From contig RXJH01000013.1 in assembly GCA_003987725.1 (NCBI GenBank), forward strand, positions 100,421 through 164,420: a stretch of DNA of 64,000 bases. Reading direction: 5' to 3'. The notes beneath the pieces were generated by a model that searched no databases, had not been told where the DNA came from, and saw nothing but the letters and a program-made list of their open reading frames with translations. Positions 481-19,487 of this stretch are shown here, piece by piece. The stretch is from Hyphomicrobium sp. Lineage in GTDB: Bacteria > Pseudomonadota > Alphaproteobacteria > Rhizobiales > Hyphomicrobiaceae. Every line of letters begins with the position of its first letter. The stretch's first letter is position 1. A program made the translations under genes and the position numbers.

Positions 481-505
481 AACGATCCTGGCATGCCGTC
501 GTTCC
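481..505 (-). promoter_or_regulatory. EcfG-type general stress promoter
   Basis: Read on the minus strand: GGAAC (505-501), 16-base spacer, CGTT (484-481). This equals the alphaproteobacterial EcfG/RpoE2 consensus. Expected transcription start is about 7 bases downstream, giving a short leader before the ATG of the DUF992-like gene at 452. Confidence 0.7.
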
Positions 506-580
506 GAATGATGCAGTATGCAATCAGGCTCCGATTTCCGCAGCCTGACGCCCTTCCATTCCCCACTAAAGCCCCACGGG

Positions 581-865
581 CTAGTCGCAAACCCTGACAC
601 GCTGATACCGCCAGACGCCCTCGTAATCGTCCCAATAGCGGCGGCCGCGTTCCCAGTGGCAATAACCGTAACGCGGGCCATCGTAATAGTAGGCTGGTGG
701 CGGTGGAGGAGGATCGTAGTAGGGCCGTCCTGCGGACCCGATGATGGCTCCGGCAGCAAGCCCACCGAAAACACCGGCAGCGAAGTCGCCACCACCGGCA
801 TGGGCGGGCGCGGCAATAGTTAGGAAGGTGCTAGCCGCAAGCACGCCATGAAGAACGGTTCTCAT
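581..865 (-). CDS. Small secreted glycine-zipper protein
   Basis: A 94-residue protein. The signal peptide (residues 1-24, ending APAHA) is followed by a glycine/alanine-rich stretch (GVFGGLAAGAIIG) like a glycine-zipper, then a run of six prolines, a Tyr-rich segment and a C-terminal Trp/Arg/Tyr-rich tail with two cysteines. The start at 865 is preceded by GGGGAGA. Similar short glycine-zipper envelope proteins are common in Rhizobiales; their role is unknown. Confidence 0.75.
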   Translation of the reverse strand: MRTVLHGVLAASTFLTIAAPAHAGGGDFAAGVFGGLAAGAIIGSAGRPYYDPPPPPPAYYYDGPRYGYCHWERGRRYWDDYEGVWRYQRVRVCD

Positions 866-1089
866 GATGATCTCCCCTCGAAACATCTGTGCAGAGACTG
901 TGGTACGCGTCGGGTGAACGTCGGCTGAACCACGGAGCAAGGCCGTTACTCGAACTTCAGGGAGATTGTGTGGTTGAATTCTGTGGATTTTAAGTGGCTC
1001 CGTCGTCCATACGTTCAACGAGGTCAAGAGCGAAGCAGGCGCTCACGCGATTTTTGATGCCTCAGCTCGGTTATTGCTGGCGATCCGAG

Positions 1090-1440
1090 ATGGAAATTCC
1101 GTTGCTCAATGAGAGCGAGTGGGAGCAGGTTGTTGCATGCGGCACATCTGTGCATGAGATGAAAACTGCACGCGTTGAGCAACGTGCCCTCGATCGTTGC
1201 TTTGAGCAAGACGCGGTTTACGGTGATTGCTTATTCCTTTTGGTCAAAAAGGATTGCCTAGAAAGCGATCCTGAGCGCACTACGTCTCTCACGCCAACGA
1301 CAATAGTTCTTGCCGTCATTGCGCGACGCACAAATGCAGGTTCAGAAATCGATCAGATAGCAACTTTTGTCGATTGCAGATCGCGGGCTTTGGATGCAGT
1401 CTTTGGAACGAGGTCCATTACAGCCGCGTTCAACGGTTGA
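1090..1440 (+). CDS. Hypothetical protein, 116 aa
   Basis: Starts at the ATG giving MEIPLLNESEWEQV. The frame stays open upstream to 994, but that part looks non-coding. No signal peptide or membrane segment. Acidic N-terminus and several cysteines; no recognised family. An EcfG-type promoter for the next gene lies inside its last 40 bases, and its stop codon falls inside a 19-base tandem duplication. A weak GAGATG-type context precedes the start, so the exact N-terminus is uncertain. Confidence 0.6.
   Translation: MEIPLLNESEWEQVVACGTSVHEMKTARVEQRALDRCFEQDAVYGDCLFLLVKKDCLESDPERTTSLTPTTIVLAVIARRTNAGSEIDQIATFVDCRSRALDAVFGTRSITAAFNG
1405..1430 (+). promoter_or_regulatory. EcfG-type promoter upstream of fdsD
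   Basis: GGAAC (1405-1409), 17-base spacer, CGTT (1427-1430), an exact consensus match. It sits within the 3' end of the preceding gene and about 55 bases before the fdsD start, so the leader would begin near 1438, at the first copy of the tandem repeat. Confidence 0.65.
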
Positions 1441-1473
1441 TGTCTTAGAGAACAGTTGATGTCTTAGAGAACA
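1436..1473 (+). repeat. Perfect 19-bp tandem duplication
   Basis: The 19-base unit GTTGATGTCTTAGAGAACA occurs twice head to tail (1436-1454 and 1455-1473) with no mismatch. The first copy contains the stop of the preceding gene; both fall in the predicted leader of fdsD. Confidence 0.9.
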
Positions 1474-1483
1474 AAGGTGCTCC

Positions 1484-1792
1484 ATGGAAAGAGCCCATCT
1501 GGTTCAAATGGCCAATCAGATCACCGAGTACTTCGAGGTTTATCCGAAGTCCGAGGCTCTGGATGGCATCGCCAAGCACATCCACAATACGTGGGAGCGG
1601 CGAATGCGCGATGCCATGAAGGGTATAATCGATGCGGGCGGAGAGGGGCTGAAGCCGCTTTTCCTCGAGGCCATGCAGCACTACTTCAAGGGACCGAAAT
1701 CCGATGGACGGCGAGTGATCGTCGATCCGCGCAAGAAGGCACCGGAGGGAGCCCAGCCGAGTTTTGCCGACGGCGGCGGAGACGCTGGCTGA
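1484..1792 (+). CDS. fdsD: Formate dehydrogenase delta subunit (FdsD family), orphan
   Basis: A 102-residue protein. Residues 5-66 match the FdsD family pattern: LVQMANQI near the start, then IAKHIHNTWERRMRD and the conserved AGGEGL followed by PL. FdsD is a small accessory subunit of NAD-dependent molybdenum formate dehydrogenases, normally encoded after fdsGBA; no fdsGBA genes are in this window. The C-terminal ~35 residues are a charged, glycine-rich tail. The ATG at 1484 lies downstream of AAAGGTG. Expression is probably under the EcfG promoter at 1405-1430. The family assignment is from motif recognition; the role without its partners nearby is inferred to be in trans. Confidence 0.8.
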   Translation: MERAHLVQMANQITEYFEVYPKSEALDGIAKHIHNTWERRMRDAMKGIIDAGGEGLKPLFLEAMQHYFKGPKSDGRRVIVDPRKKAPEGAQPSFADGGGDAG

Positions 1793-1817
1793 TTTCGAAA
1801 GTGCACACCTCGCTTCG

Positions 1818-3191
1818 TCATGTGTCCGAAGGGATGACGCGAGCGTCGTGAAGTGTTGCGCTCGATTGGCGACGGCTGGCCTCGATGCCAGCGGCGAAGA
1901 CGGCGATCAGCAATGACGCGGCGACCGAGGGCCAGACGAAGCGGTATTCCTGGGATTGGATGAGAAGCATCAGGCTTGCGCAGTTCAATCCGGCGGGCAG
2001 CCAGGACACCCATAAAATCCGTTCGGCAACGATCATCAGTCTTACCGTCGCGATCAGGCCAACGAGTAGATAAAGGGCCGGCCGGTTGAATGGACCCTTG
2101 CCGTTGAAATATCGGCCGTGAAACCAGCGTAGCCAATTGGCGAGACCGGGAATTTTCGATTGCGTGGTGAGCTTGAGTTGCGCCGCTAGTGCGTTCTGCG
2201 TGATTTCGAGCGGAGGGTCCGCGATCTGCTGGTGTGACCGCGCCCAGGGCCGCCAGAACAGCTCCGTCATGCAAAGCTCCTGCTGCAGCGTAAGAAGGGG
2301 ATGCTGAATGGCTAACGCGGCTGCGGTTGCAAAGACCTTGTTCGGTTCGATGGCATCGTGCGAAACGCGCGGATCATCAAAGTAGAACGGAACGATACTC
2401 CCGCAGGGGACAGACTTCCACGCCTCGGCGGGCGCGATGGCGAGGATCGCCTGTTCCTGCTCGGGCGAAAGGTGCGCATCGGAGCGGACCATCGCCGCAA
2501 GCATGGGCAGCGCGATGATGCTGCGCAGTTGAGCAGATTGCGGCGTTGCGGAGAGGGCCGTTAGAAGCAGCGTCTTCGACAGGATGAATGCCACGATCTG
2601 GACGGCGGCAAGCGCGGCGGCGGGCACGCGTGCTGGCCGCGCGGCGACGGAGAGAACCAGAAAAACCCCGGCCGCCACGATGACACCGTTGTGGCGAAGC
2701 AGGACGAGTACAATTCCCGCAGCCCCCATGGCCACCCACACCGAGACCGGCAGGATGAAATTGAAGCGCACGCCCCGGATACAGAGAGCGGTCAAGGCGA
2801 TGAGCGCCGTCGCAAAGGGCACATCCTTCCACAGTGTGGTGACTGTGAGGAAGTTCGGAGGGAACAGCGGAAACAGGACGGCAGCCGCCATCAGGATCGG
2901 GAGAGCCACGCCCCAGCGGCGCAACTCCGTCAGGAAGTAGCCGGTTGCCAGTGCGAAGAGAGTGTAGTGCGCGAAGACCACGAAGGCCGGACTGGGTACG
3001 ACGCGATAAAACACCCAATTCAATAGAGTGCCGCTGACCGGATGCGTATCGTCAAAGTCCCAAGTCAGCAGTTGCTGCCATTGGTCAAGTGAGTCCGGCG
3101 ACATCTGCGCCGGCCAAAACGCCAAGTGCACAACGAGATAGATCAAGATGCTGGGGACCGCGAAAGCGATCGAGGAACTGATGGTCCGCAA
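1818..3191 (-). CDS. Multi-pass membrane protein, GT-C-like
   Basis: A 457-residue integral membrane protein with roughly ten hydrophobic segments. After the first segment (residues 10-30) comes a loop with SPDSLDQWQQ and a DTHP motif near residues 48-51, followed by more membrane helices. An acidic motif in the first loop plus a downstream D-x-HP is typical of GT-C fold lipid-linked-sugar glycosyltransferases and of the DUF6020-type proteins. Substrate unknown. It is monocistronic and converges on fdsD; its stop lies about 25 bases from the fdsD stop. Confidence 0.65.
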   Translation of the reverse strand: MRTISSSIAFAVPSILIYLVVHLAFWPAQMSPDSLDQWQQLLTWDFDDTHPVSGTLLNWVFYRVVPSPAFVVFAHYTLFALATGYFLTELRRWGVALPILMAAAVLFPLFPPNFLTVTTLWKDVPFATALIALTALCIRGVRFNFILPVSVWVAMGAAGIVLVLLRHNGVIVAAGVFLVLSVAARPARVPAAALAAVQIVAFILSKTLLLTALSATPQSAQLRSIIALPMLAAMVRSDAHLSPEQEQAILAIAPAEAWKSVPCGSIVPFYFDDPRVSHDAIEPNKVFATAAALAIQHPLLTLQQELCMTELFWRPWARSHQQIADPPLEITQNALAAQLKLTTQSKIPGLANWLRWFHGRYFNGKGPFNRPALYLLVGLIATVRLMIVAERILWVSWLPAGLNCASLMLLIQSQEYRFVWPSVAASLLIAVFAAGIEASRRQSSATLHDARVIPSDT

Positions 3192-3410
3192 TGTCGAGAG
3201 CCCCCGAAAAACGAGGTGTCCAATGCGGCGCTTGCCGACCCGGCACGTTAGCGCGGCTTGGGCAATCCCAGTGCGCCGAGCTTATCGCCGCTCGCGCTCC
3301 TGTTCGAGAAAAACTCCAGTGAATTGGGGGGAAATATTTCGCGTCGTTTGCGACCGGGCTTTTATTCACATCGAGACTTTTGCGAAGCCTTGGGCGACGC
3401 GAAAGCGGAA

Positions 3411-3440
3411 ACCGCAGCCGGCGTCTGATCCGGCTGCGGT
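3411..3440 (-). terminator. Hairpin terminator of the 53-aa membrane gene
   Basis: An 11-bp perfect stem (ACCGCAGCCGG with CCGGCTGCGGT) around an 8-base loop, eight bases past the stop of the small gene at 3449. On the minus strand it is followed by a weak T-rich stretch (TTTCCGCTTT). Confidence 0.55.
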
Positions 3441-3448
3441 CTGTCATT

Positions 3449-3610
3449 CTAGTGTCTAAGAACGTGCACGATCACGAGCAATTCAACGCTTGCGACCATT
3501 CCCAGTAGCCAAATTAATAGCAGCCGGGCGCCGAGCTTCTCTTCGAGTTCCTTTTCGCGCTTTGAAACCGCTGAATGCGGAGCGGCGAAAGCTTGGTCTG
3601 AGTCATCCAT
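3449..3610 (-). CDS. Small membrane protein, 53 aa
   Basis: A short frame starting MDDSDQAFAAPHS. An amphipathic charged stretch (KREKELEEKLGARL) is followed by one strong transmembrane helix (LLIWLLGMVASVELLVIVHV) and a short basic end. A second in-frame ATG lies at 3622 (adds MELQ). No strong Shine-Dalgarno precedes either start. A perfect hairpin follows the stop, supporting a real transcription unit. Family not recognised; probably an inner-membrane small protein. Confidence 0.6.
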   Translation of the reverse strand: MDDSDQAFAAPHSAVSKREKELEEKLGARLLLIWLLGMVASVELLVIVHVLRH

Positions 3611-3705
3611 TTGAAGTTCCATTGTTGCATGCCGCAGCCAAGCCTCGCCCCGGAGGCGACGCTTGATGCATTTGCGGCGTTAGAATGATGATGAGTTGAA
3701 GCGGC

Positions 3706-4065
3706 TCAGCCGAAAGGCGGCGCCCGCGGATCATTCGACGATTGAGCGAGATGATACGAGCCCGGCCCATAAGCGTGCCGAACCCACGTCAAAAATTCAC
3801 TGGGAAGCTCTAGCTCAGCCGCATAGCCGCCGGTCGCGTTTGCGGACTCATGACCGTTCGATCCAGCATCCGATTTGATGAAGGATTGAAAATTCGAAAC
3901 GATCTGAAGCCGTGAAGGCGCAACGAAACTCTCGTCCTTCGTCCCCCAAGTCGAGACGTGCGGAGGCTCAACGTCGGGAAAGCTCGACGCGACGTTCGGA
4001 GCCTGGCTCGCCGCGAGAGCAAAGCACGCCCAAATCAGAATTCGTAGCAGCGACGAGAAGGACAT
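3706..4065 (-). CDS. Secreted hypothetical protein
   Basis: A 119-residue protein. The N-terminus MSFSSLLRILIWACFALAAS reads as a signal peptide with cleavage near SQA; the rest is polar without cysteines. A TTG 15 bases upstream (4080) could also start it, but the ATG places the signal peptide at the N-terminus. Weak ribosome site. No family recognised. Confidence 0.5.
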   Translation of the reverse strand: MSFSSLLRILIWACFALAASQAPNVASSFPDVEPPHVSTWGTKDESFVAPSRLQIVSNFQSFIKSDAGSNGHESANATGGYAAELELPSEFLTWVRHAYGPGSYHLAQSSNDPRAPPFG

Positions 4066-4353
4066 ACGCGCTTCTATCAAACATCACGCGACGTATCCAG
4101 TTTGCGACGCGATTTTCTTCGTTCGATCCCTCGCGATACTGCCAGTGTCTGGGCAAGTGCGACTTTATGCTTGAACCTATAACGCTGCGACGAAGAGATC
4201 GCGAGAGGCGCAGAAACGCCTTTCGAAGTCTGGTCCCAATCCAATTTGGATCGAGGCTTCTGGTTGATATGAACCGGCAGTGTCGGGCGTTGCCGCGCAC
4301 ACTCCCGCGACCGAGATCTGAATCACACGCATTGCGACGGGCTCATGTAACGA

Positions 4354-4569
4354 TCAATGCTTAGTGCCGTGCATTGCGAGATGAGCTTTTGCCGCTTCTT
4401 CGTGATGTTCTTTTGCGTGGATATGATGCGCCTCTGCTAAATGGGCGTGATGCGCAGCTTTTTCGTGCTGGCCTGCTTGGTGCTGCTTGGCAGCTTCCTT
4501 GTGGTGCTGGGCGGCCTGCTCGTGATGCTCGGCTGCTTTTTGGTGATGTTCGTGAGGTTTCTGAGCCAT
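4354..4569 (-). CDS. His/Ala-rich repeat protein
   Basis: A 71-residue protein built of repeats of the type HH-x-x-AA-x-HH (EHHEQAAQHHKEAAKQH and so on): about one quarter histidine, with alternating Ala and Glu/Lys/Gln. It should be a continuous amphipathic helix with histidine faces, so metal binding is plausible. No signal peptide, therefore probably cytoplasmic. AAGGA stands ten bases before the ATG. Similar His-rich short proteins occur across Proteobacteria; no proven function is known to me. Confidence 0.8.
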   Translation of the reverse strand: MAQKPHEHHQKAAEHHEQAAQHHKEAAKQHQAGQHEKAAHHAHLAEAHHIHAKEHHEEAAKAHLAMHGTKH

Positions 4570-4823
4570 TTTTTGAGTATCCTTCTTCCAATCAAAAATG
4601 TCTCTCTAACCCACAAACGATAAGCTCGGTTTGTAATGGTTGGTCGCTTTTGATCATATGCATTTGGCCTATGTCTTTCGGATAATACTTGCGTATTCGG
4701 GACTGCGCACCGACGACAAATGTAATTGTCGCGTCGCAATAGCGCGCAATGAACTTCGCCTGGAAAGTTAAAATAAGAGAGATTGTGTTTGCAGATGGCC
4801 AGAGAGACATTCCGAGATCTGCG

Positions 4824-5351
4824 TTACCAATGCCACCACGAGCATTGAAGGAGCGGGCTTCCGTCTGCGGGTCTCCTGTTCGGAGGACTGCCTCTTGGGA
4901 TCCGCATGCGATCCCAAAACTCCGACGGCCGAACCAGCCAAACGCGCGTTTCCATACGAAGCCGCTCGATGAGCTTGCCATCGCAGGTCAACAACGCCCC
5001 GACGCCAGCCTGTTCGCACTCGGCAATGATTTTCCCGTCGCTCGCACCTACCCGATAGGAAACCAGTTCCTCCGCGCGCTCAGCCACGAGGTCTTCCTGG
5101 GGCGAAGGCTGGACCTCGGAAACATGGATCATAGCCCAGGCAATGTGGGTATCGCGTTTCGCGTGATTGGGTATGGCCTCGTATTCGACTTTGACTGTGG
5201 GCACCAAACGGAAACTGGCCTCAGGCGGCATCCAAAGAAATATTCGGACCAGGGCAAGCTTCTCTTCAGCTAATCGTCCCGATGGTTGCTCCGGGGCGGC
5301 GTTCATCGCCTCGATCCAATAGGTGAACGCATTGGCGTCCAGCGCGAGCAT
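4824..5351 (-). CDS. PIN-domain protein (putative RNase toxin)
   Basis: About 175 residues from the ATG giving MLALDANAFTYWIEAMN. It has the PIN pattern of an N-terminal Asp in a short hydrophobic strand (LALDAN), a central acidic region, and a late D-x-K-I-I-A-E-C-E segment with ALLTCDGKLIERL, which would supply the remaining metal-binding acids. PIN proteins are Mg-dependent ribonucleases, often toxins of VapBC-type pairs. The frame is open to 5420, overlapping the candidate partner upstream. The C-terminal ~35 residues are Arg/Pro/Trp-rich and atypical. Confidence 0.65.
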   Translation of the reverse strand: MLALDANAFTYWIEAMNAAPEQPSGRLAEEKLALVRIFLWMPPEASFRLVPTVKVEYEAIPNHAKRDTHIAWAMIHVSEVQPSPQEDLVAERAEELVSYRVGASDGKIIAECEQAGVGALLTCDGKLIERLRMETRVWLVRPSEFWDRMRIPRGSPPNRRPADGSPLLQCSWWHW

Positions 5352-5385
5352 CCACCGATCCGAACCCACGATTGACTGTCTCCAG

Positions 5386-5550: not shown

Positions 5551-5619
5551 TCGGCGAACAGCCCTCGACTTGAAGGATCGCCCTGTGGCAGACACAGAGT
5601 CTCGGTGATCGGAGGTCCA

Positions 5620-6001: not shown

Positions 6002-6334
6002 ATGGGAAGCTACAGAGCAATCGTCATAGTCGAGCGCTCGACCAATCACCCAATGCGGTTCTGCGATACGCGCCGTAAGAGAAGCGGCAGCGCCTACGTC
6101 TTCGGATCATACGGACAGGCACTCGCCTTCGTACGGGAAACGAAGGTCAATTCTGTCGTTATCGAGTTCGACGTCGAAAAGGAAACCTTGGACTTCTGCG
6201 ACGCAGTCAAAGCCCTCAAGGTTCCGATCGTTGTTTCGGCCGGCAGTTTAGAGCCTCACGACCTAACGCAGTATGGGATGGACGGAGCCCAGGTCATCTA
6301 TCCCGCGGGCGCCTTCCAACGAAAGGCGTCTTGA
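6002..6334 (+). CDS. Atypical receiver-like protein
   Basis: A 110-residue protein whose secondary-structure order resembles a response-regulator receiver: beta strand RAIVIVERS, a helix with ALAFVRE, strand SVVIEFD, helix TLDFCDAVKAL, strand VPIVVSAG. The usual acidic pair after strand 1, the central phospho-Asp and the late Lys are not clearly present, so phosphorylation is doubtful. GAGG stands eight bases before the ATG. A solitary pseudo-receiver is the best reading; family assignment is inference. Confidence 0.6.
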   Translation: MGSYRAIVIVERSTNHPMRFCDTRRKRSGSAYVFGSYGQALAFVRETKVNSVVIEFDVEKETLDFCDAVKALKVPIVVSAGSLEPHDLTQYGMDGAQVIYPAGAFQRKAS

Positions 6335-6820: not shown

Positions 6821-7402
6821 ATGAAGAGTGTCTTTCTTTCCGTTCTGTCGTCGTTTTTGATTTGGGCAATCTTTCCGCTCGCGGCGTTAGCCGACCCGAT
6901 CGACGTCTCGACAATCAGTTGTGAGAGATTGGTTTCGGCCTATGAAGCGAAGACGCCGAGCGACCTGTCATTCGTCAACGGCATTCTGAATTGGATGGGC
7001 GGATATCACGCAACCGCCGAACAGGGCACAGTCGTTGATTGGGACAAACTATCTGACGCCTTCAATAAGACAGTCGTATTTTGCTCCGAACATCCGGGAA
7101 TCGGCGTGCTATCGGCGAGCGAAAAGTTCATGGGCGACAATATCGACGACGCGAGCCCTCAAAGCTACGACCTGGCAATCGTCACGTGCGAAACTGTTTT
7201 GACGAACAAAGACGTGATCAAGAACATCGGTGACACCTTCATGTGGCTCGCCGGCTATCACGCTAGCTACAACAACGGCTCGACGATTCTGGATATCGAG
7301 AAATTCGTCAAGCAAACGAGTGACATCGCCGAATATTGCGAGGCCAATCCCAAGGCCAGCTTGGTGACGGCGGCCGAGAAATTCATGGGTGAAAACGACT
7401 AG
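6821..7402 (+). CDS. Tandem HdeA/HdeB-like periplasmic protein
   Basis: A 193-residue protein: signal peptide (MKSVFLSVLSSFLIWA to ALA), then two HdeA-like units. Unit 1 (~residues 28-110) has C-ERLVSAY, LNWMGGYHAT, VVFC, then ASEKFMGDN; unit 2 (~120-193) repeats C-ETVLTNKD, FMWLAGYHAS, AEYC, then AAEKFMGEND. Each keeps two cysteines that would form the HdeA disulfide and the W-x-x-GY core. HdeA family proteins are periplasmic acid-activated chaperones of ~90 residues, so two copies in one chain is unusual. A strong terminator follows the stop. Start chosen for the signal peptide; the frame is open further upstream. Confidence 0.75.
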   Translation: MKSVFLSVLSSFLIWAIFPLAALADPIDVSTISCERLVSAYEAKTPSDLSFVNGILNWMGGYHATAEQGTVVDWDKLSDAFNKTVVFCSEHPGIGVLSASEKFMGDNIDDASPQSYDLAIVTCETVLTNKDVIKNIGDTFMWLAGYHASYNNGSTILDIEKFVKQTSDIAEYCEANPKASLVTAAEKFMGEND

Positions 7403-7851: not shown

Positions 7852-8139
7852 ATGAAGACCGCTATGACAGTGGCCCTGGCCGCAGTCGCGATGATGCTTG
7901 GCGCAGGCGTCGCGAGCGCAGCCGACAAGCCGGTGAAGCATGTGCATCACAGCCATCATCACCAGGCCCATGCGACGCATAAGTCGACGAAGCACTATGC
8001 CGCAAAGCCTACCCACAAGCACATCGCCTCGAAGCATACTCACAAGCACGTCGCTTCGAAGCACACCAAGAAGCATTATGCGTCGAAGCATACGCACAAG
8101 AAGCTTGTTTCGAAGCGCACGCACAAGCCTGTCGCTTAA
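7852..8139 (+). CDS. Secreted His/Lys-rich repeat protein
   Basis: A 95-residue protein: signal peptide (MKTAMTVALAAVAMMLGAG to ASAAD), then a His-rich segment (HVHHSHHHQAHATH) and a run of ~8-residue repeats of the form SKHTHKHVA / SKHTKKHYA. Highly basic and His-rich, it should bind metals or polyanions in the periplasm. AGGAGC precedes the ATG at the usual distance. Comparable to the cytoplasmic His-rich protein at 4354-4569 in composition only. Function unknown. Confidence 0.75.
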   Translation: MKTAMTVALAAVAMMLGAGVASAADKPVKHVHHSHHHQAHATHKSTKHYAAKPTHKHIASKHTHKHVASKHTKKHYASKHTHKKLVSKRTHKPVA

Positions 8140-10011: not shown

Positions 10012-10036
10012 GGAACGATTCAAGTACCGCTACGTT
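10012..10036 (+). promoter_or_regulatory. EcfG-type promoter of the glycosyltransferase operon
   Basis: GGAAC (10012-10016), 16-base spacer, CGTT (10033-10036): exact consensus. It lies 30 bases before the ATG of the GT4 gene, leaving room for the GGAAGG ribosome site at about 10052. Confidence 0.75.
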
Positions 10037-11229: not shown

Positions 11230-13413
11230 ATGGCAGTCGCGCCATCCCGGCCACCAGATCATTCTCCCGAGCACGAGCCTGAGCGGATACACGCTGAGGC
11301 TGACAGCTCTCCGCGTGCTCATGAGACGCTGAAGCATGACGACGCGTTCGTCGTCGTCGATACCCATGGCGACATTGGCGCCTTCGGCAATCACGCGGAC
11401 GGCTTCTTTTATAACGATACGCGGTACCTATCTCGTCTCGAGATGCTGATAGCGAGACGTCCGCCATTGCTTCTCGGCTCGACGCTCGGCCGGCAGGATC
11501 TCCAGCTCTGCGCCGATCTGACGAATACCGACATTTACTCGAACGGCGCCCTTTGGCTGCACAAGGACGTCGTCCACGTTTTCAGAACGACCTATGTCCG
11601 TGACGCCAGCTTGCGCCAGCGGCTGGTCTTCACCAACCATTCGAACGTCGATCTCTATCTGCCTGTCACGATCTTCTTCGATGCCGATTTCTTGGACATC
11701 TTTGAGGTGCGGGGCATGCGCCGCGAGAAGCGTGGAACGGTTCGCAGGCACGTGGAATCTCCGCATTCCGTCGGGTTTGCATATTCGGGTCTGGATCGAG
11801 TCATCCGCCAAACCACTGTCCATATCGATCCCGAGCCCGTCACCTTGAAGGAGACGTCGGCGTTCTTTCGTCTACATCTTCCCGCTAAGGGATCGCAGCG
11901 CGTCTACGTAACATCCGTGGCGGCCGGCGACCGCGCGAAGGTCCCATGCACGCACTACGTCAAAGGATTGCTGGACGCGCAACGTCACCTGCGCCGTTCG
12001 CAGCGCCAGGCAACCAGTATCGAGGTTTCGCATCCCGATCTCGATAGCGTGCTGAAGCGCTCTCTAGCGGATCTGAGATTGTTGATCACCGAGACACCCG
12101 ACGGACCTTATCCCTACGCGGGTACACCTTGGTATTCGACGACCTTTGGCCGCGACGCGCTGATAACGGCACTGCAAGTCCTCTGGCTTGATCCGAGTAT
12201 CGCCCGCGGCGTCCTTCGACGCCTCGCCCGATATCAGGCGCAATCGCACGACGCCGACGCGGACGCCCAGCCGGGCAAAATTCTTCACGAAATGCGCAGC
12301 GGCGAGATGGCGGCGCTGCGTGAAATTCCCTTTGGCCTTTATTACGGCAGTGTCGATTCGACGCCGCTTTTCGTCGTTTTGGCTGGAGCCTATATCGAGG
12401 CGACCGAAGACAAGGAATTCCACCGCGAAATTTGGCCGGCGATCCTCAAAGCGCTGGAATGGATAGACGGTCCCGGCGATCCGGACGGTGACGGCTTTGT
12501 CGAATACGCGCGCGAAACGGAAAACGGATTGTCGAACCAGGGATGGAAGGACAGTCACGACGCAATTTTCAATAGGGATGGCACTCTCGCTGAGGGGCCG
12601 CTCGCGCTGGTCGAAGTGCAAGGCTATGTGTACGAGGCGAAGAACGCAGCGGCGCGCATGGCCAGGATGCAGGGCGATGACAATCTGGCCCTCCGCCTAC
12701 AGGATGAAGCGGCAGCGCTCCAGAAGAGGTTCGAAGAGAAGTTTTGGTCGCCCGAGATCGGCACATATGCTTTGGCGCTTGATGGCCGAAAGAGACGCCT
12801 CGACGTGCGATCGAGCAACGCCGGCCATGCGCTGAGTTCGGGCATCGCCGATTCAGAACGGGCGATGCGCGTCATCGAGCAGATGGTGTCGCCGGCTTTC
12901 TTCTCAGGTTGGGGCATCAGAACGATCGCGAGTTCCGAGGCGCGATACAACCCGATGTCTTACCACAATGGCTCAATCTGGCCCCACGATAACGCGATGA
13001 TTGGCGCAGGCTTCGCGCGCTACGGACGATCGGATCAGATCGAAACCGTCTTTAACGGCTTGCTCGATGCTGCGCTGAACATGTCGCAAAGGCGATTACC
13101 CGAGCTGTTCTGCGGCTTTCGTCGCCGTGCAGGGCGCGCGCCTATTCTTTATCCGGTTGCTTGTTCGCCGCAAGCTTGGGCGAGCGGCTCGATGCTCCAT
13201 CTCTTGAAATCGCTGATGGGCCTCAAAATCGATGGCGCTGCCCGTACCATCACACTGAGTGCTCCGTATTTGCCTGAGCGCGTCGGCGAAGTGACGGTTC
13301 GCAATATACGGGCGGGCGCGGGCTCTGCTGGCTTCACTTTGCGCCGGAAGAACGGCGGCGTGTCGATCGATGTCACGGACTGCAGTGACGGTGCCAAAGT
13401 CGTGCTGGCCTAA
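11230..13413 (+). CDS. Amylo-alpha-1,6-glucosidase (glycogen debranching type)
   Basis: A 727-residue protein. N-terminal domain (residues ~30-260, FVVVDTHGDIG, GFFYNDTRYLSRLE) matches the glycogen-debranching N-terminal module; the C-terminal (alpha/alpha)6-barrel carries TFGRDALITALQ, LSNQGWKDSHDA and SIWPHDNAMIGAGFARYG, typical of GDE_C/GH15-like enzymes with acidic catalytic residues. Hydrolyses alpha-1,6 branches in alpha-glucans; substrate not proven. Cytoplasmic (no signal). GGAG precedes the ATG by about ten bases. Co-directional with the GT4 gene and ending seven bases from the convergent ABC exporter. Confidence 0.88.
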   Translation: MAVAPSRPPDHSPEHEPERIHAEADSSPRAHETLKHDDAFVVVDTHGDIGAFGNHADGFFYNDTRYLSRLEMLIARRPPLLLGSTLGRQDLQLCADLTNTDIYSNGALWLHKDVVHVFRTTYVRDASLRQRLVFTNHSNVDLYLPVTIFFDADFLDIFEVRGMRREKRGTVRRHVESPHSVGFAYSGLDRVIRQTTVHIDPEPVTLKETSAFFRLHLPAKGSQRVYVTSVAAGDRAKVPCTHYVKGLLDAQRHLRRSQRQATSIEVSHPDLDSVLKRSLADLRLLITETPDGPYPYAGTPWYSTTFGRDALITALQVLWLDPSIARGVLRRLARYQAQSHDADADAQPGKILHEMRSGEMAALREIPFGLYYGSVDSTPLFVVLAGAYIEATEDKEFHREIWPAILKALEWIDGPGDPDGDGFVEYARETENGLSNQGWKDSHDAIFNRDGTLAEGPLALVEVQGYVYEAKNAAARMARMQGDDNLALRLQDEAAALQKRFEEKFWSPEIGTYALALDGRKRRLDVRSSNAGHALSSGIADSERAMRVIEQMVSPAFFSGWGIRTIASSEARYNPMSYHNGSIWPHDNAMIGAGFARYGRSDQIETVFNGLLDAALNMSQRRLPELFCGFRRRAGRAPILYPVACSPQAWASGSMLHLLKSLMGLKIDGAARTITLSAPYLPERVGEVTVRNIRAGAGSAGFTLRRKNGGVSIDVTDCSDGAKVVLA

Positions 13414-13420
13414 GACCTCG

Positions 13421-15196
13421 TTACGCCGCCGCCGATTTCAGACGACGGACTTCGAGATCGACGAGCGATTTGTACGCGCCCGCCTTGCTGATCAGGGTTT
13501 CTGGCGTGTCGTCTTGCACCACCTCGCCGTTCTGAATGACGATGATGCGGTCGAAGTTGCGAAGCGTCGACAGGCGGTGGGCAATCGCGATCACTGTTCT
13601 CCCGCGCATGAGCGTCGTGAGGGCTTCTCTGATCAACTCCTCGGAATGGCTATCGAGTGCGGAGGTTGCTTCATCGAGAAGAAGAATGGGCGCGTTTTTC
13701 AAAAAGGCCCGCGCGATCGCGACCCGCTGCCGTTGACCGCCCGAGAGTTTGGCGCCCCGATCGCCGACGATGGTATCGAGCCCGTCAGGCAACTGCTCGA
13801 TGAAGCTCAGGCAGCGCGCCATCCGGGCCGCCGCCATCACATCGTCATCGCTGGCGTCTGGCCGCCCATAACGAATGTTCTCCCGGAGCGTTCGATGGAA
13901 GAGGCTGACGTCCTGCGGCACGACCGCGATCGCCCTTCTCAAGGAATCGTCCGGCAGCAGGGCGCCGACTTCGCCGTCGATGAGAATGGCGCCCGATTGA
14001 ACGTCGTAGAACCGCTGGATGAGGGAAAAGAGCGTGGATTTGCCCGCCCCCGAGGGACCGACGATTCCGACCCGCGTTCCGGGTTCGATCTTGAAACTCA
14101 ACGACGAGAAGACTTGCTTGCCGTCGGGATAGGCGAAGCTGACGTCGCGGAATTCTAGGGCGCCTCGTGCTGCAGCTATGCGCTTCGCTGACGAAATGGT
14201 GGGTAAAGCATGCGGCGTAAGGAGCGTCTTCAACGCTTCGGAAAAGCGCGCCAGGTGTTGCGTCACATCGACGAGCGCCACCGCAAGATCGCGCGTGGCG
14301 CTCAAAATGGAAATGCCGAGCGTCGAAACGAGGACGACATCGCCGGCCGTTGCTTCCCCTCGCTGCCAAAGCAAGATCGACCAGGCGAGCACGCAGCATG
14401 TCAGCACGGCCGTCGTAGCGGCGTGAATAATCCGAAGGCGCTCAAGAAAATACAGGCTCTTTTTGCGGGCGCGCACTTCACGGCTGATGACGCCGCCGAG
14501 CCGGCGATGCTCGCTTCGCATCCGTCCGAAGGCTTTCACGACTGAGATATTTGAAATGACATCGATCATGTCGCCGTCGACGTTCGCCGCTTCGCGAGCG
14601 TATCCGTGATGCAGCGGCGTGCCACGCGCCGCCCAGTAGAACATGAAAACGACGACGACCCCGACCACTCCCGTCAGCGTCAACGCCATCGCCACGCTGA
14701 CCGTCGTCAAATAGATGATCGAAACGACCGTCGCGATGAGCGGAGGCATGGCGTTGAAAGTAACCATGGTCTCGGTCGTGTAGAGCGCGTTGGCGGTGGC
14801 GGTGATCCGGCTGGTGAGCGCTCCCGGAGCCTGTCCTTGGAAAAAGCTCGGAGCGTGTCCGGTCAAATGCCGGAAGAGTTTCCGCCGCACGCGTCCGGAA
14901 ACGCCCGTGAACGTCGAATGGCCGATCCACGCGGCGAGCCGCCATGAGAGATTATCGGCCGCGATAAATCCGATGAGCAGCGCGAAAGCGAACCAAACTG
15001 ACCCGTGTCGCGAAGGATCCGATAGCGCGTCCACCAGCTTCTTCAAACCGTATTGGGTGGAAACCGAAAAGGTGACGGCGGCGATGACCGACAGCAGGAT
15101 GGCGAGATGCCCCCACCGGTAGCCGCCCAAGATTGCGATGATAAAGCGGTATGGGTGCTTTGCAAAAGTCGACAAGTCGCTCGTCAAGTTACGCAT
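13421..15196 (-). CDS. ABC exporter, fused permease/ATPase
   Basis: A 591-residue half-transporter of the MsbA/ATM1 type. About six transmembrane helices in residues 20-310, then the ATPase: Walker A GPSGAGKST, signature LSGGQRQRVAIARA, Walker B ILLLDEATSALD and H-loop IAIAHRLST. It would dimerise in the inner membrane and export a lipid, glycan or peptide; the substrate is unknown. Monocistronic and convergent with the debranching enzyme, with no strong promoter consensus seen upstream. Confidence 0.9.
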   Translation of the reverse strand: MRNLTSDLSTFAKHPYRFIIAILGGYRWGHLAILLSVIAAVTFSVSTQYGLKKLVDALSDPSRHGSVWFAFALLIGFIAADNLSWRLAAWIGHSTFTGVSGRVRRKLFRHLTGHAPSFFQGQAPGALTSRITATANALYTTETMVTFNAMPPLIATVVSIIYLTTVSVAMALTLTGVVGVVVVFMFYWAARGTPLHHGYAREAANVDGDMIDVISNISVVKAFGRMRSEHRRLGGVISREVRARKKSLYFLERLRIIHAATTAVLTCCVLAWSILLWQRGEATAGDVVLVSTLGISILSATRDLAVALVDVTQHLARFSEALKTLLTPHALPTISSAKRIAAARGALEFRDVSFAYPDGKQVFSSLSFKIEPGTRVGIVGPSGAGKSTLFSLIQRFYDVQSGAILIDGEVGALLPDDSLRRAIAVVPQDVSLFHRTLRENIRYGRPDASDDDVMAAARMARCLSFIEQLPDGLDTIVGDRGAKLSGGQRQRVAIARAFLKNAPILLLDEATSALDSHSEELIREALTTLMRGRTVIAIAHRLSTLRNFDRIIVIQNGEVVQDDTPETLISKAGAYKSLVDLEVRRLKSAAA

Positions 15197-15422
15197 CCCT
15201 CAAGACTGGCACTTCGATTCGCCACCGGTCGGTCGATCTCGAATGTCGAAAAATTCCGCAGTCAGCGGACGGTTTCGCAATATAATCCTGCGCTTTCGCA
15301 TTTCATTAAACGCTGCCGATGGGGCAATCAGGCAACGAAGAGACTGCGACCGGTTAACTCAGCATGCTGCTCCCGACTGCCAGGAATGCTTCCCGCTCGA
15401 GGTTACAGCTCAGTCCCGGTTT

Positions 15423-15447
15423 GGAACCGTGATTCGTCTGCTTGGTT
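15423..15447 (+). promoter_or_regulatory. EcfG-like promoter (one mismatch)
   Basis: GGAAC (15423-15427), 16-base spacer, GGTT (15444-15447) in place of CGTT; fits the looser GGAAC-N18-TT form. It lies 35 bases before the ATG of the next gene, the right distance for a short leader. Confidence 0.45.
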
Positions 15448-15481
15448 CCTACGTGATGACGGGTAAGCAGGATTGAAGACC

Positions 15482-16072
15482 ATGGCGAAAATTTTAGTTG
15501 CCCTCTCAGCAGGTCTCATCGTTGGCGTCTCGTCGGCTGCGATGGCTCAACAGGTCAGCACGCCGTCCGCGCCCTCCGGCGCGTCGCCGGCCACGACAAT
15601 CAGTCCGCTGACCCCGACGCCCAATACCTCACCGCTGACGGTGGCGCCGGCGAACGGCGTCCTCACAAACCAATCGAGTTCGGAAGTGCCGGCAATTGTG
15701 AACCCATCGCCGACCGAGACCATCAGGTTGGACTCGGCGGCAGCGAGCGCGCAGGCGCTTCAGATCGATCCGAACAGTTCGAATGTCTCGATTTTGAGCG
15801 CGGATATAGTAACGACACCACAGACGGCAACGGGCGTTTCGCTCAACGCAATACTTGCGCCAGCCACAACATCTGCGGTGCCCGCTCCATCCGCCAACTC
15901 GCCGAGCTTTTATCCTGCCATCATTGGCGAGCCGGCCTCTACCGCAACCTTCCTCTCGAATTTTGGGGGCACGACATCGACGACTGGGCTGGCTTCTATC
16001 GGCGCACTGGAAAGATCTTCTTCCGCCGGCAGCTCATCGACGCCGACCGCTCGGATAACCAGCAGACGTTAG
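15482..16072 (+). CDS. Secreted low-complexity Ser/Thr/Pro/Ala protein
   Basis: A 196-residue protein with signal peptide (MAKILVALSAGLIVGVSSAA to AMAQ) and a body of Ser, Thr, Ala and Pro with almost no charged or aromatic residues, so probably disordered and surface or periplasmic. AGGA stands nine bases before the ATG; a TTG at 15473 is a less likely start. No family recognised. Possibly EcfG-driven. Confidence 0.6.
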   Translation: MAKILVALSAGLIVGVSSAAMAQQVSTPSAPSGASPATTISPLTPTPNTSPLTVAPANGVLTNQSSSEVPAIVNPSPTETIRLDSAAASAQALQIDPNSSNVSILSADIVTTPQTATGVSLNAILAPATTSAVPAPSANSPSFYPAIIGEPASTATFLSNFGGTTSTTGLASIGALERSSSAGSSSTPTARITSRR

Positions 16073-16127
16073 CGGATTGCATTATGACTGCGCTGGTTCG
16101 ACGCAAGAAAGAGGAGCACGGTTGGAC

Positions 16128-16152
16128 GGAACAACTAGGCCAGGGCGTCGTT
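16128..16152 (+). promoter_or_regulatory. EcfG-type promoter upstream of DUF763 pair
   Basis: GGAAC (16128-16132), 16-base spacer, CGTT (16149-16152): exact consensus. It precedes the small gene at 16248 and the DUF763 gene at 16414, which overlap each other. Confidence 0.65.
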
Positions 16153-16247
16153 GACTGTGCGCAGGTGGCTAGGGCCGGAAGTGTTTGAGGAATCAGATAC
16201 TTCGGAATCGCCCGTGCATATCCCGAAAATTTTAGAGGAAACGGTGC

Positions 16248-16448
16248 ATGAATCTACGCGAATTCACGCGGCGGGCGCGCGCGTCCCGGTTGGACAGGAA
16301 GGCAAAATTTGAAAAGGCCTTCGAGCGTGCACGGCGCGATCTGCAGCTGACCGAAGATACGTCGCTGTGGTCGCGTCCTCCGACTCATCATACGTTCATC
16401 GGAGGTAGTTCTGATGGAGCCGATGGCACGACGTACAGGCAGCGCTGA
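16248..16448 (+). CDS. Small basic protein upstream of DUF763 gene
   Basis: A 66-residue frame. Residues 1-33 form a very basic helix (FTRRARASRLDRKAKFEK); the tail is polar. AGAGGAA lies before the ATG. The last 35 bases overlap the DUF763 start in another frame, suggesting coupling if both are real. No family recognised. Confidence 0.4.
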   Translation: MNLREFTRRARASRLDRKAKFEKAFERARRDLQLTEDTSLWSRPPTHHTFIGGSSDGADGTTYRQR

Positions 16449-17691
16449 TCTTCCGCTTCATGGCGGCCACGTTCCTGCGTGGCTGTCGGCCCGCATGGCA
16501 ACGCTCGGCGCGGTCATATGTCAGGCAATCGTAGAAGAATACGGTCGGGACGAATTGTTGGCCCGCCTTGCCCATCCTTTCTCGTTCCAGTCGTTTGGCT
16601 CCGTGATGGGTATGGACTGGCATTCATCCGGCGTCACGACCAGCGTCATCGGCGCGCTGAAACGGGGATTGCGCCCCCTGCAGGATGAGCTTGGGGTTTA
16701 TGTTTGCGGCGGTCGCGGCAAGCAATCGCGTCAGACGCCGCAGGAGTTGAGCATCGTAGGTGAACGCGCAGGCGTTGACGCTGACGGATTGACAAGGACG
16801 AGCCGCCTCGTCGCCAAGGTCGACAGCGCCGCCGTACAGGATGGCTTCGATCTCTATCTTCACGGCTTCTTCGTTACGCGCGAAGGACACTGGACCGTCG
16901 TTCAGCAAGGCATGAACACGGAGAAACGGCAGGCTCGCCGTTACCATTGGTATTCGCAGTCACGATCCAATTTCATCGATGAACCCCATACGGCAATTGA
17001 CGGGCCGGGCCAGGGGGAAATCGTCAACCTTACGGACCGCCGGGCCGAGGCTTCGCGAGCGGCACAACTCGATCTGCTTTCGACCTTGGGTCCTGATAAG
17101 ATCGTCGCGGAATTGCTGGCGGACGCACAACCTCACTCCGAGTCTGGGCAGCAACTTTCGTTGCCTCATCTTGCGATGCCCGCGCACCACGAGGTTCGCG
17201 CGAGCGACGTCTTCATGCGCCGCCTTCATGGAACGCTCGCCGCTGCCGCCGAGCAGGGCCCCAAAGATTTTCCCGATTTGCTGCTGACGCCGGGCGTTGG
17301 CGCAAGAACCGTTCAATCGCTTGCTATGGTCGCGGAAGTTCTGCACGGCGCGCCCTACCGGTTCCAGGATCCGGCGCGGTTTTCCTTGGCACACGGTGGC
17401 AAGGACCGGCACCCCTATCCGGTGCCGACGAAAGTTTACGACGAAACGATCAGGGTTCTGATGTCGGCTGTGCAAAAGGCTAAGCTTGGAAAAAGCGAAA
17501 CGCTTGCAGCGCTGAAACGATTGGATGAGCAGGCAAGACAGCTGGAACGCACCGCCGACGGCCCGTCCTTCGATGACTTCGTCGCTCAGGAACTCGACAA
17601 TTCATCGTTCCTTGGTGGCCGCTCGGTCTTCGGCTGGGAAAATTCGCCGCCGCCAATGCCTGCGACGAAGAAGAAGCGTGGCGCCGCCTAA
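16414..17691 (+). CDS. DUF763 family protein
   Basis: A 425-residue protein. The N-terminus RRTGSADLPLHGGHVPAWL and later VMGMDWHSSGVTTSVIGALK are hallmarks of DUF763, a family of unknown function in archaea and bacteria. Near residue 290 is LLLTPGVGARTVQSLA, which reads as a helix-hairpin-helix, followed by the family's GGKDRHPYPVP motif; this hints at nucleic-acid contact. GGAGG stands eight bases before the ATG. Probably EcfG-controlled with the small gene upstream. A Lys/Arg-rich tail ends the protein. Confidence 0.88.
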   Translation: MEPMARRTGSADLPLHGGHVPAWLSARMATLGAVICQAIVEEYGRDELLARLAHPFSFQSFGSVMGMDWHSSGVTTSVIGALKRGLRPLQDELGVYVCGGRGKQSRQTPQELSIVGERAGVDADGLTRTSRLVAKVDSAAVQDGFDLYLHGFFVTREGHWTVVQQGMNTEKRQARRYHWYSQSRSNFIDEPHTAIDGPGQGEIVNLTDRRAEASRAAQLDLLSTLGPDKIVAELLADAQPHSESGQQLSLPHLAMPAHHEVRASDVFMRRLHGTLAAAAEQGPKDFPDLLLTPGVGARTVQSLAMVAEVLHGAPYRFQDPARFSLAHGGKDRHPYPVPTKVYDETIRVLMSAVQKAKLGKSETLAALKRLDEQARQLERTADGPSFDDFVAQELDNSSFLGGRSVFGWENSPPPMPATKKKRGAA

Positions 17692-17794
17692 AGCAATTCC
17701 AGCAAAAGTGCGCAGCAGTTTTGCGTCCGGAATTGCGTCAAAACAAAAGGCTAGAGCGTTTTCGCGATTCAGAGAACAAACGGAAACGCTCTAG
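17692..17794. repeat. Dispersed palindromic repeat, two hairpins
   Basis: Hairpin A: GCAATTCC (17693-17700) pairs with GGAATTGC (17729-17736), with an inner GCAAAA/TTTTGC pair. Hairpin B: CTAGAGCGTTT (17751-17761) pairs with AAACGCTCTAG (17784-17794), 11 bp perfect. The layout matches the short intergenic palindromes scattered in many Rhizobiales genomes. It fills the gap between two convergent genes; hairpin B contains the stop codon of the Nudix gene. Confidence 0.75.
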
Positions 17795-18204
17795 CGCTTG
17801 CGCCGGCCGTCGAGACCGGCGATGAGCGTCTTCAGCCCGGGCTCCCGCACCTTTCTGACGGCTTCGTCCTGGGGAAACCAAACACGCGTCCGCACGTCCT
17901 GTTCGCGCCAGCGCTTCCGTTGCTTCTTCACCCACAGAACGTAGCAATCAACGGTGAGCACACGTGTCTCTTCCAGCATGATCTTGCGATAGCGGTAGCT
18001 GCCAATCGGTTCGCCGGAAATCTTTCCGGTGACGCCCCCCTCCTGCTTGGCCTCGCGCGCCGCGGCTGCCGGATCGTTCAACCGCTTTGAAGGCCAACCT
18101 TTCGGAATGACCCATCGTCCCGTTTCTCTGGATGAGACGAGAAGGACCTCCAGTCCATCGCGCGTCTTCCGCAGGGGCAGGGCTCCAACCTGTCGAATTG
18201 TCAT
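17791..18204 (-). CDS. Nudix hydrolase
   Basis: A 137-residue Nudix protein. The core VIPKGWPSKRLNDPAAAARE leads into AKQEGGV; the RE-x3-E-x-G-V metal site is present though the first Glu of the textbook box is replaced, as in the diphosphoinositol/diadenosine-polyphosphate-like KGWP subgroup. It probably hydrolyses a nucleoside diphosphate derivative. Its stop lies inside the dispersed palindrome shared with the convergent DUF763 gene. Confidence 0.85.
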   Translation of the reverse strand: MTIRQVGALPLRKTRDGLEVLLVSSRETGRWVIPKGWPSKRLNDPAAAAREAKQEGGVTGKISGEPIGSYRYRKIMLEETRVLTVDCYVLWVKKQRKRWREQDVRTRVWFPQDEAVRKVREPGLKTLIAGLDGRRKR

Positions 18205-18288
18205 AAATTGTCTTCCAGTCGCGCACGTAAGGCCAGATCGCTCATTATCATCGTTTTGAAAGAACGGCTTATTGTTTTAAGGCTGCCA

Positions 18289-18314
18289 GGAACCTTCCTC
18301 TTTTGGGATCCGTT
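18289..18314 (+). promoter_or_regulatory. EcfG-type promoter
   Basis: GGAAC (18289-18293), 17-base spacer, CGTT (18311-18314): exact consensus. The small membrane gene starts 33 bases downstream, after a GGAGG ribosome site. Confidence 0.75.
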
Positions 18315-18346
18315 ACTTTTTCAAACCGATACTGGAGGAAGCAGAA

Positions 18347-18610
18347 ATGGCTATCTATACCGACCCTCAAACGGGTCAGCGAAGGGAAGTTGACGACCTT
18401 TCCCGCTCGACGACAAGCTCATCGTCAATTGGCATTGTCGCATTGTTAATCGCGTTGGCGCTTATCGGCTGGTATTTCTATGGCCGCGTCAGCCCGACCG
18501 TCGATCGGACGAATACAGGCGCTTCGACTGTTACTGAACCCGTAACATCGCCGTCTTCGCCGAACGCCAGCCCGACGCATCCCGCGCCTTCGCCAAATCC
18601 GGGGCCCTAA
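18347..18610 (+). CDS. Small single-span membrane protein
   Basis: An 87-residue protein: short polar N-terminus with Ser/Thr run, one transmembrane helix (IGIVALLIALALIGWYFYG), and a Thr/Ser/Pro-rich tail predicted outside the membrane. GGAGGAAGC precedes the ATG. Directly downstream of an exact EcfG-type promoter. No family recognised. Confidence 0.75.
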   Translation: MAIYTDPQTGQRREVDDLSRSTTSSSSIGIVALLIALALIGWYFYGRVSPTVDRTNTGASTVTEPVTSPSSPNASPTHPAPSPNPGP

Positions 18611-18650
18611 CCAAGGGATGCAATACATATGAATTGGTTCCACGGGCAAC

Positions 18651-18675
18651 AAAAAGCCCCGCGCAATGGCGGGCG
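18651..18675 (-). terminator. Probable minus-strand terminator
   Basis: On the minus strand GCCCGC and GCGGGGC form a short GC stem (one bulge) followed by TTTTTG, 30 bases past the stop of the gene at 18705. Confidence 0.4.
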
Positions 18676-18704
18676 TTACGGCTCAAACGTAGGACGGAGA
18701 GGCT

Positions 18705-18890
18705 TTACTCAGCGCTCTTGGCGAGCCCGGCGAGATGCGCCTCGGCCTCTTCGATCGCTTCCTTGAGATCAGGATGAGCGTCCGCGATGTACTGAGCGCA
18801 CAAAGCCGCGAGATGTTCCTCCCAGTCTTTCTTGGGGGCGAACGGGCTGGGCGGGTCGATGAGATACGTACTAGAGCTTGTGTAAGACAA
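18705..18890 (-). CDS. Small acidic protein, 61 aa (TTG start)
   Basis: Soluble, acidic and helical: KKDWEEHLAALCAQYIADAHPDLKEAIEEAEAHL. The only start in frame is a TTG that overlaps the preceding gene by 20 bases, so it is either translationally coupled or the two frames are one gene split by a frameshift. No family recognised. Confidence 0.5.
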   Translation of the reverse strand: MSYTSSSTYLIDPPSPFAPKKDWEEHLAALCAQYIADAHPDLKEAIEEAEAHLAGLAKSAE

Positions 18891-19077
18891 TGTCGTTTAT
18901 CGTGTTTTCGATCGGATCAGCATAGCGCTTTGCCACTCCGGCTGTCTCCCCATCCAGGGAAAATCCGTACTCGACCCACCCCATCTTATCCATGACAAGC
19001 AACGCTACGTGATTGGTAATCGCATTCGCATCATCTGCCGAAAGCTGACCAGATTTGATAGCCGACTGCCCTCGCAA
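18871..19077 (-). CDS. Small protein, 68 aa (TTG start)
   Basis: Starts at TTG near an AGGAG that is too close for ideal use; later Met codons exist (residues 29 and 32). The chain has helical KSGQLSADDANAITNHVALL, then GETAGVAKRYADPIENTIND. Soluble. It ends 20 bases inside the next co-directional gene. No family recognised. Confidence 0.45.
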   Translation of the reverse strand: MRGQSAIKSGQLSADDANAITNHVALLVMDKMGWVEYGFSLDGETAGVAKRYADPIENTINDIVLHKL

Positions 19078-19176
19078 TCTCCTAGGCGTGGCTCAAGCGT
19101 AAGCTGGACGATACGCATTGTCCGGTCGTGTTTGGAGCGAGGCTTGGCCGTCGCACCGGCCTAACGGTCAAATCTG

Positions 19177-19383
19177 CTATTTTGACTTCACCCGCTCTTT
19201 TGCTTTTTCAGAAAGCTTTTCGACGAGGTCTTTGTCGATAAGAGGGGGGCGGCGATCGACGGGTCGCACGGGTTCGTCAGGCATCCGGTCAACCGCAATC
19301 GGATCGCTTCCCGGAAACGTCTCCTTCAGAGCTTCATCGAGTTCCTTATCGACCTGAGCCTTCGGCTTCTCGCTCGTACCCAT
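19177..19383 (-). CDS. Small charged protein with ETFPGSDP motif
   Basis: A 68-residue soluble protein. Residues 10-35 carry VDKELDEALKETFPGSDPIA, a motif seen in many short uncharacterised proteobacterial proteins (consensus DEALxETFPASDP). The rest is Lys/Glu/Pro-rich. GGAG precedes the ATG by seven bases. An exact EcfG-type promoter sits about 80 bases upstream, fitting a stress role. Confidence 0.7.
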   Translation of the reverse strand: MGTSEKPKAQVDKELDEALKETFPGSDPIAVDRMPDEPVRPVDRRPPLIDKDLVEKLSEKAKERVKSK

Positions 19384-19461
19384 GGGCTTCTCCAAAACGG
19401 GGTTCTCCAAAACGCCCGCGTGATCGGCACTTGCCGCGCATCCGCAAGTGCATCGGGCTTG

Positions 19462-19487
19462 AACGCGCGCCAGGAACGCAAGGTTCC
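19462..19487 (-). promoter_or_regulatory. EcfG-type promoter
   Basis: On the minus strand GGAAC (19487-19483), 17-base spacer, CGTT (19465-19462): exact consensus, driving the ETFPGSDP-motif gene. Confidence 0.7.

Follow-up and report, generated by a model that had tools for sequence, protein, structure and literature searches.

The first 20 kb of a 64,000-nucleotide stretch of the Hyphomicrobium sp. genome (assembly GCA_003987725.1, contig RXJH01000013.1, positions 100,421 to 164,420; C9:100421-164420 of the 4.25-Mb assembly G000, hereafter the window) contain six exact copies of GGAAC-N16/17-CGTT, which together with a probable seventh are very likely promoters recognised by EcfG, the general stress sigma factor; this reading is drawn from sequence. 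The six sites had been reported in a first-pass annotation of this DNA and were all re-found with identical coordinates and strands, each followed by a correctly oriented gene at the distance given in Table 1. For site 3 this holds with the glycosyltransferase start taken as ATG 10067, since with the longer frame from GTG 9962 the site would fall within the gene. The seventh site, absent from that annotation, lies outside the first 20 kb. The seven exact matches in the window compare with a mean of 1.45 in 100 dinucleotide shuffles, none of which reached seven (maximum 5); the mean is close to the annotation's estimate of about one chance match per 64 kb. Two near matches it listed are present as GGAAC-N16-GGTT (15423) and GGAAC-N17-GGTT (24435), and the latter, with only short frames ahead of ATG 24828, was treated as chance. 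An EcfG matrix built from 31 sites, none of them in the window, gave as a raw count ten window rows of at least 14 bits; eight fall within the first 20 kb, two of these coming from the palindrome described below. Searches of Rfam at gathering scores returned zero matches across the window and loci L330, L035 and L036.

The strict motif is clustered in the genome as a whole and, in a sample of its places, predominantly intergenic. The clustering test was built on 100 listed of 106 motif places and 100 listed of 105 places of the reversed pattern used as a control, with two-strand pairs merged. A neighbour within 5 kb was found for 43 of 95 listed motif places; the simulation gave 19.3 on average, and the reversed control 15 of 97. 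At the Poisson rate from the genome total, 0.47 sites are expected in the stretch holding the six, with P about 1e-5 for six or more, in a stretch chosen after being seen; a uniform simulation of 96 sites placed six in a 19-kb stretch somewhere in 0.6% of its runs. No motif site occurs in the 15.5 kb directly preceding the window, whether or not the first base of the -10 box is fixed. A cluster of seven sites in 10 kb (C5:350869-360790) is denser and another holds five in 10 kb (C3:249676-259504). The cluster in the window is one of several in a genome-wide EcfG regulon, and the "regulon island" of the first-pass annotation stands as an enrichment of the 20 kb, which is neither the densest cluster nor a fixed unit. 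The 30 motif places sampled for position were the first listed in contig order, with the C3 clusters among them. Outside called genes were 20 of the 30, as against two of 20 sampled control places; counted as distinct places the figure is 18 of 28, two palindromes having counted on both strands (Fisher P 0.00025). Thirteen of the motif places, compared to none of the control places, lie within 300 bp ahead of a same-strand start. Genes downstream of motif places elsewhere in the genome include those for Ku, LigD, two CsbD proteins, a PRC-barrel protein, a DUF1328 protein and a cytochrome c.

The genome encodes the expected regulators, with NepR, an EcfG-like sigma factor and PhyR at L035 and a second EcfG-like factor, a second PhyR and two kinases at L036 (Table 1). 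Strict motifs stand ahead of nepR-ecfG and of phyR (L035 6132-6156, minus strand, and 6163-6188, plus strand), an arrangement consistent with autoregulation. Adjoining ecfG is the gene for a large hybrid kinase (L035 2-5050) that contains some ten HAMP domains; a strict EcfG site of its own lies 35 bp ahead of its start.

Table 1. Candidate EcfG-type sites, associated genes and regulatory genes. Positions refer to the window unless a locus (L) or contig (C) is given; ECF, extracytoplasmic function.
Feature	Position	Strand	Remarks
Site 1, candidate EcfG-type promoter, N16	481..505	-	28 bp ahead of ATG of DUF992-like gene
DUF992-like protein, 148 residues	6..452	-	signal-like N-terminus; Pfam PF06186, 30 bits (cut-off 22.7)
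Site 2, candidate EcfG-type promoter, N17	1405..1430	+	53 bp ahead of ATG
FdsD-like protein, 102 residues	1484..1792	+	outside fds operon; Pfam PF11390, E 3.8e-21
Site 3, candidate EcfG-type promoter, N16	10012..10036	+	30 bp ahead of ATG 10067
GT4-type glycosyltransferase, 362 residues	10067..11155	+	Pfam PF00534
Debranching-type glycoside hydrolase	11230..13413	+	GDE_N_bis, MGH1-like, GDE_C (Pfam)
ABC transporter	13421..15196	-	Pfam; left of palindromic box, gap 228 bp
Palindromic box, 27 bp, GGAACCGTGATTCGTCTGCTTGGTTCC	15423..15449	both	GGAAC-N16-GGTT on + (15423-15447) and - (15425-15449)
Pro/Ser/Thr-rich protein, 196 residues	15482..16072	+	signal-like N-terminus; right of box, gap 34 bp; no Pfam match
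Site 4, candidate EcfG-type promoter, N16	16128..16152	+	95 bp ahead of ATG of 66-residue gene
Conserved protein, 66 residues	16248..16448	+	overlaps DUF763 gene; 67-85% identical in 5 relatives; no Pfam match
DUF763 protein	16414..17691	+	Pfam PF05559, E 4.4e-121
Site 5, candidate EcfG-type promoter, N17	18289..18314	+	32 bp ahead of ATG
Protein of 87 residues	18347..18610	+	one likely membrane helix; has paralogues; no Pfam/NCBIfam match
Conserved charged protein, 68 residues	19177..19383	-	no Pfam/NCBIfam match
Site 6, candidate EcfG-type promoter, N17	19462..19487	-	78 bp ahead of ATG
Seventh strict site	63020..63044	-	29 bp ahead of ATG 62990
EcfG-like sigma factor	L035 5286-5810		Pfam sigma-70 r2/r4 with PhyR_sigma2
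NepR	L035 5807-6046		Pfam
PhyR	L035 6295-7098		Pfam PhyR with receiver domain
Second EcfG-like sigma factor	L036 3152-3712		Pfam
Second PhyR	L036 3839-4645		Pfam
HisKA_2-type kinase	L036 6012-7553		Pfam
HWE kinase	L036 8116-10134		Pfam
Further ECF sigma gene	C5:241873

Conservation of the boxes ahead of orthologous genes was wide for sites 3, 4 and 5 and partial, hence weakest, for sites 1, 2 and 6. The scan of orthologous loci reached 400 bp upstream, and the named relatives L085, L086, L089 and L090, probably the same as G015, G001, G014 and G016, were each counted once. Genomes of the genus and named relatives, including H. facile, support the placement of the window in Hyphomicrobium. In the cultivable H. 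facile (L086), sites 3 and 6 are strict, sites 4 and 5 read TGTT, and the palindrome described below is present. Site 3 is strict at 10 of 15 other loci and reads AGTT at two, with widely different spacers; two distant loci (57% identical) are without it and one is a fragment. Of 12 other genomes, 10 retain site 4, five of them with a free first base in the -10, and it was not found in G017 and G004. Relative to the DUF763 start it lies as NGTT at -283 to -287 in five loci and is strict at about -400 in two, while in G010, G014 and G016 a strict copy, beyond the reach of that scan, lies about 98 bp ahead of the 66-residue gene. These positions indicate that the distance to the 66-residue gene is kept; this gene is conserved in its own right. 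Site 5 was compared with 29 other loci, mostly paralogues of weak similarity. Corresponding boxes lie at -51 to -61 in 21; of the rest, five could not be placed and three have a strict site further off. Since the regulators are encoded, the sites cluster and lie between genes, motifs precede nepR, phyR and the Ku, LigD and CsbD genes, and the boxes are kept while the spacers change, the results make it very likely that the sites are EcfG promoters, as the first-pass annotation had suggested.

The genes behind these sites do not travel as one block. The DUF992-like gene of G015 and G020 is on a different contig from the rest and keeps its site there, results indicating that the gene moved together with its promoter and that the block does not stay together as a unit. 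Likewise, the glycosyltransferase and DUF763 genes are far apart or on separate contigs in G010, G014 and G016. The debranching-type enzyme probably shares an operon with the glycosyltransferase, judging from gene order and spacing. The earlier description of the genes as mostly unknown fits the small proteins; Pfam names the glycosyltransferase, the debranching-type enzyme, the FdsD-like and DUF763 proteins and the ABC transporter.

The FdsD-like gene behind site 2 is distinct from the fds operon of the genome, which carries a separate FdsD (L329 8259-8501). A large formate dehydrogenase subunit was not found in window positions 1-26000 or in the 15.5 kb preceding the window, nor was one nearby in the four loci checked of the five FdsD-like loci that bear site 2. 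Two head-to-tail copies of a 19-bp unit lie between site 2 and the gene (1436-1473), and in the nearest relative (L056) the site is 19 bp closer, as if the unit were present in a single copy. The frame after the seventh site (62679-62990, minus strand, 103 residues) has a weak gene-finder score, one likely membrane helix and a Pro-rich tail, and resembles the 87-residue protein behind site 5 in build. The 20-kb block also encodes a protein with two stretches of HdeA/HdeB type, an acid-stress family by name, without a strict EcfG site ahead (6821-7402). Two small, repetitive proteins rich in His and Lys are encoded at 4354-4569 and 7852-8139 and are conserved in relatives.

The near match at 15423 belongs to a palindromic box (Table 1) in which the -35 of each strand overlaps the -10 of the opposite strand. 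An EcfG sequence followed by CC (GGAAC...NGTTCC) is self-complementary, and a box of this kind, 27-28 bp long, may constitute two opposed stress promoters, kept by Hyphomicrobium at a few loci, with one box serving two divergent genes and polymerase choosing the direction. This proposal is a tentative one, to which we give somewhat less than an even chance. The palindrome was retained in nine of the 10 genomes examined at this locus. In seven (G000, G015, G018, G001, G003, G020 and G007) invariant flanking columns number only 1/60 to the left and 9/60 to the right, and the G007 palindrome has a different core with one extra base; G016 has a one-way site only, ahead of the gene for the 196-residue secreted-type protein. 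This protein is 39-76% identical in five relatives and 35-42% in three more.

The chances are about even that the box instead binds a dimeric regulator as an operator, or promotes transcription one way only, with downstream bases conserved for another reason. The half-sites would lie about two helical turns apart, and the GTT is followed in nine of 10 genomes by CCTA, which goes beyond CC alone and speaks against two-way use. The ABC transporter gene, set apart from the box by the wider gap, is elsewhere in G010 and G014, where the palindrome is nevertheless retained ahead of the secreted-type gene with another frame on its far side. The 13 ABC orthologue loci also weigh against two-way use, with the palindrome at six, a one-way site at L265, none at five and one locus cut off. 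Furthermore, general selection for palindromes was unsupported, the counts being 11 compared to 12 for the reversed control in this genome and 153 compared to 175 in 22 genomes; by hand count CC follows six of 48 intergenic motif centres, about the composition-based expectation by our estimate. Against these alternatives stand the length of the orthologous boxes, either 27 or 28 bp as suits sigma spacers of 16 or 17, and the NGTT kept at promoter spacing on both strands. In addition, CC follows GTT at the box in nine of 10 genomes and at none of 29 promoters of sites 3, 5 and 6 (own genome counted in both).

Ten of the 11 palindromes of this genome lie outside called genes, as EcfG sites in general do. 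By our own gene calls only one of 10 (L331) is between divergent genes, the finder having overlooked the gene at 15482. A second palindromic box (L330 2139-2165; C7:168638 of G000) recurs in at least six genomes by core similarity. On one side of it, at 35 bp, is a 72-residue frame that appears coding (nine silent versus two replacing codon changes in the closest pair); on the other are a 55-residue frame that does not (0 versus 18), a nearer 24-residue frame and a very conserved short stretch. At L043 2218-2641 (C10:26717-27140 of G000) two palindromic boxes about 400 bp apart precede a single small secreted-type gene, and the matching loci of two relatives likewise have two palindromes. A further box, at L368 1514-1541 (C3:3946613 of G018), lies between BrkB-family and acyl-CoA dehydrogenase genes, an arrangement common to three relatives (G018, G001 and G003).

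With respect to the six sites, it is unlikely that they are ECF promoters read mainly by another sigma factor with a like motif, or divided between two EcfG-like factors. The genome does have two EcfG-like sigma genes beside two phyR genes, plus the ECF sigma gene on C5, and the two EcfG factors of Rhizobium etli have partly distinct regulons according to the part of PMC3892343 drawn on here; yet the motif is that published for EcfG (PMC3892343, PMC6599016) and stands here ahead of nepR and phyR. The genome-wide total and the 10 of 30 sampled sites within called genes might imply that a short motif recurring by chance in a G+C-rich genome produced the cluster. This is very improbable, since all six sites precede correctly oriented start codons, the clustering is stronger than in the control or the simulation, and boxes are kept ahead of orthologues with changed spacers, most clearly at site 3.

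Several results nonetheless weigh against assignment of the six sites to EcfG. The genome-wide total of 106 strict motifs is not raised above the 105 of the reversed pattern, and a good part of the 106 must therefore be chance. Weak sites scored in the window with the outside-trained matrix are not in excess over random sequence (44 at 9.5 bits versus a mean of 36 and a largest value of 43; 26 versus 23 at 11 bits), and no further targets are claimed from the matrix scan. The intergenic calls derive from our simple gene finder, which overlooked some genes, and the Pfam models by which the sigma factors were recognised (sigma and PhyR-sigma) are not EcfG-specific. Conservation is incomplete: site 1 is strict in only two of four other loci (one of the remaining two a fragment match), GGAAC-N17-NGTT stands ahead of only five of 29 other FdsD-like loci (one strict), and site 6 is strict in only six of 13 other loci, with one -35 mismatch in four and no site in three.

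If the cascade of the studied Alphaproteobacteria applies, a stress-sensing kinase would phosphorylate PhyR, which would then remove the anti-sigma factor NepR from EcfG, and the freed EcfG would start transcription at GGAAC-N16/17-NGTT. Targets in the 20 kb would be the DUF992-like and FdsD-like genes, the glycosyltransferase/debranching-enzyme operon, the 66-residue/DUF763 operon and the genes for two small proteins. The box at 15423 would switch on the secreted-type protein and perhaps the ABC transporter in the opposite direction. In this scheme EcfG binding, stress induction, operon structure and two-way firing are the inferred parts. Judged by their families, the glycosyltransferase and debranching-type enzyme suggest handling of a sugar polymer or solute, the secreted and small membrane proteins, with perhaps the transporter, suggest a change in the cell envelope, and the FdsD-like protein may perhaps adjust formate oxidation.

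Hyphomicrobium is a genus known for methylotrophy. For this genus the analysis provides a list of conserved candidate stress-response targets. The results suggest that an FdsD-like protein is connected to the stress response, and through it formate oxidation may perhaps be connected as well. If two-way firing is true, the box would offer an ECF sigma factor a simple route to co-regulate divergent genes. No description of a two-way EcfG box was found in the open-access literature, judged by titles and abstract openings, and on the same basis nothing was found covering EcfG with a genomic island, EcfG with formate dehydrogenase, a symmetrical bidirectional promoter of any ECF sigma factor, or PhyR/NepR with a palindrome. 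Within the open-access text available, one paper named Hyphomicrobium alongside EcfG and the general stress response, and did so only in its reference list.

The system resembles the EcfG/PhyR/NepR response of R. etli, Sphingomonas melonis and Methylobacterium extorquens, as described in the parts of PMC3892343, PMC6599016 and PMC4814048 drawn on, in its motif, its regulators and the several copies of EcfG and PhyR. The published motif is GGAAC-N16-CGTT (PMC3892343) or, in S. melonis, GGAAC-N17-20-GTT (PMC6599016). The EcfG-dependent genes of S. melonis include those for Ku, a PRC-barrel protein and a neighbouring glycosyltransferase and glycosidase (PMC6599016), and the same kinds of genes, the latter pair again adjoining, are among the candidate targets here. 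It differs from these systems, so far as those parts describe them, in being deduced from sequence, in the strong local clustering of sites, and in the FdsD-like, DUF763, 66-residue and 87-residue families suggested as new targets in Hyphomicrobium. The motif, the regulators and part of the target set are thus known, and the symmetrical box is one possible new detail. In the two-way promoters of E. coli, according to the portion of PMC12825309 drawn on, both directions share or straddle one -10 element. The box at 15423 is similar in its near symmetry, which could allow RNA polymerase to be engaged in either orientation. It differs in that it is of ECF type, with each -35 (GGAAC) overlapping the opposite -10 (GTT) and no shared -10, and in that its two-way activity is predicted; the box may therefore work like a bidirectional promoter without being of the E. 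coli type.

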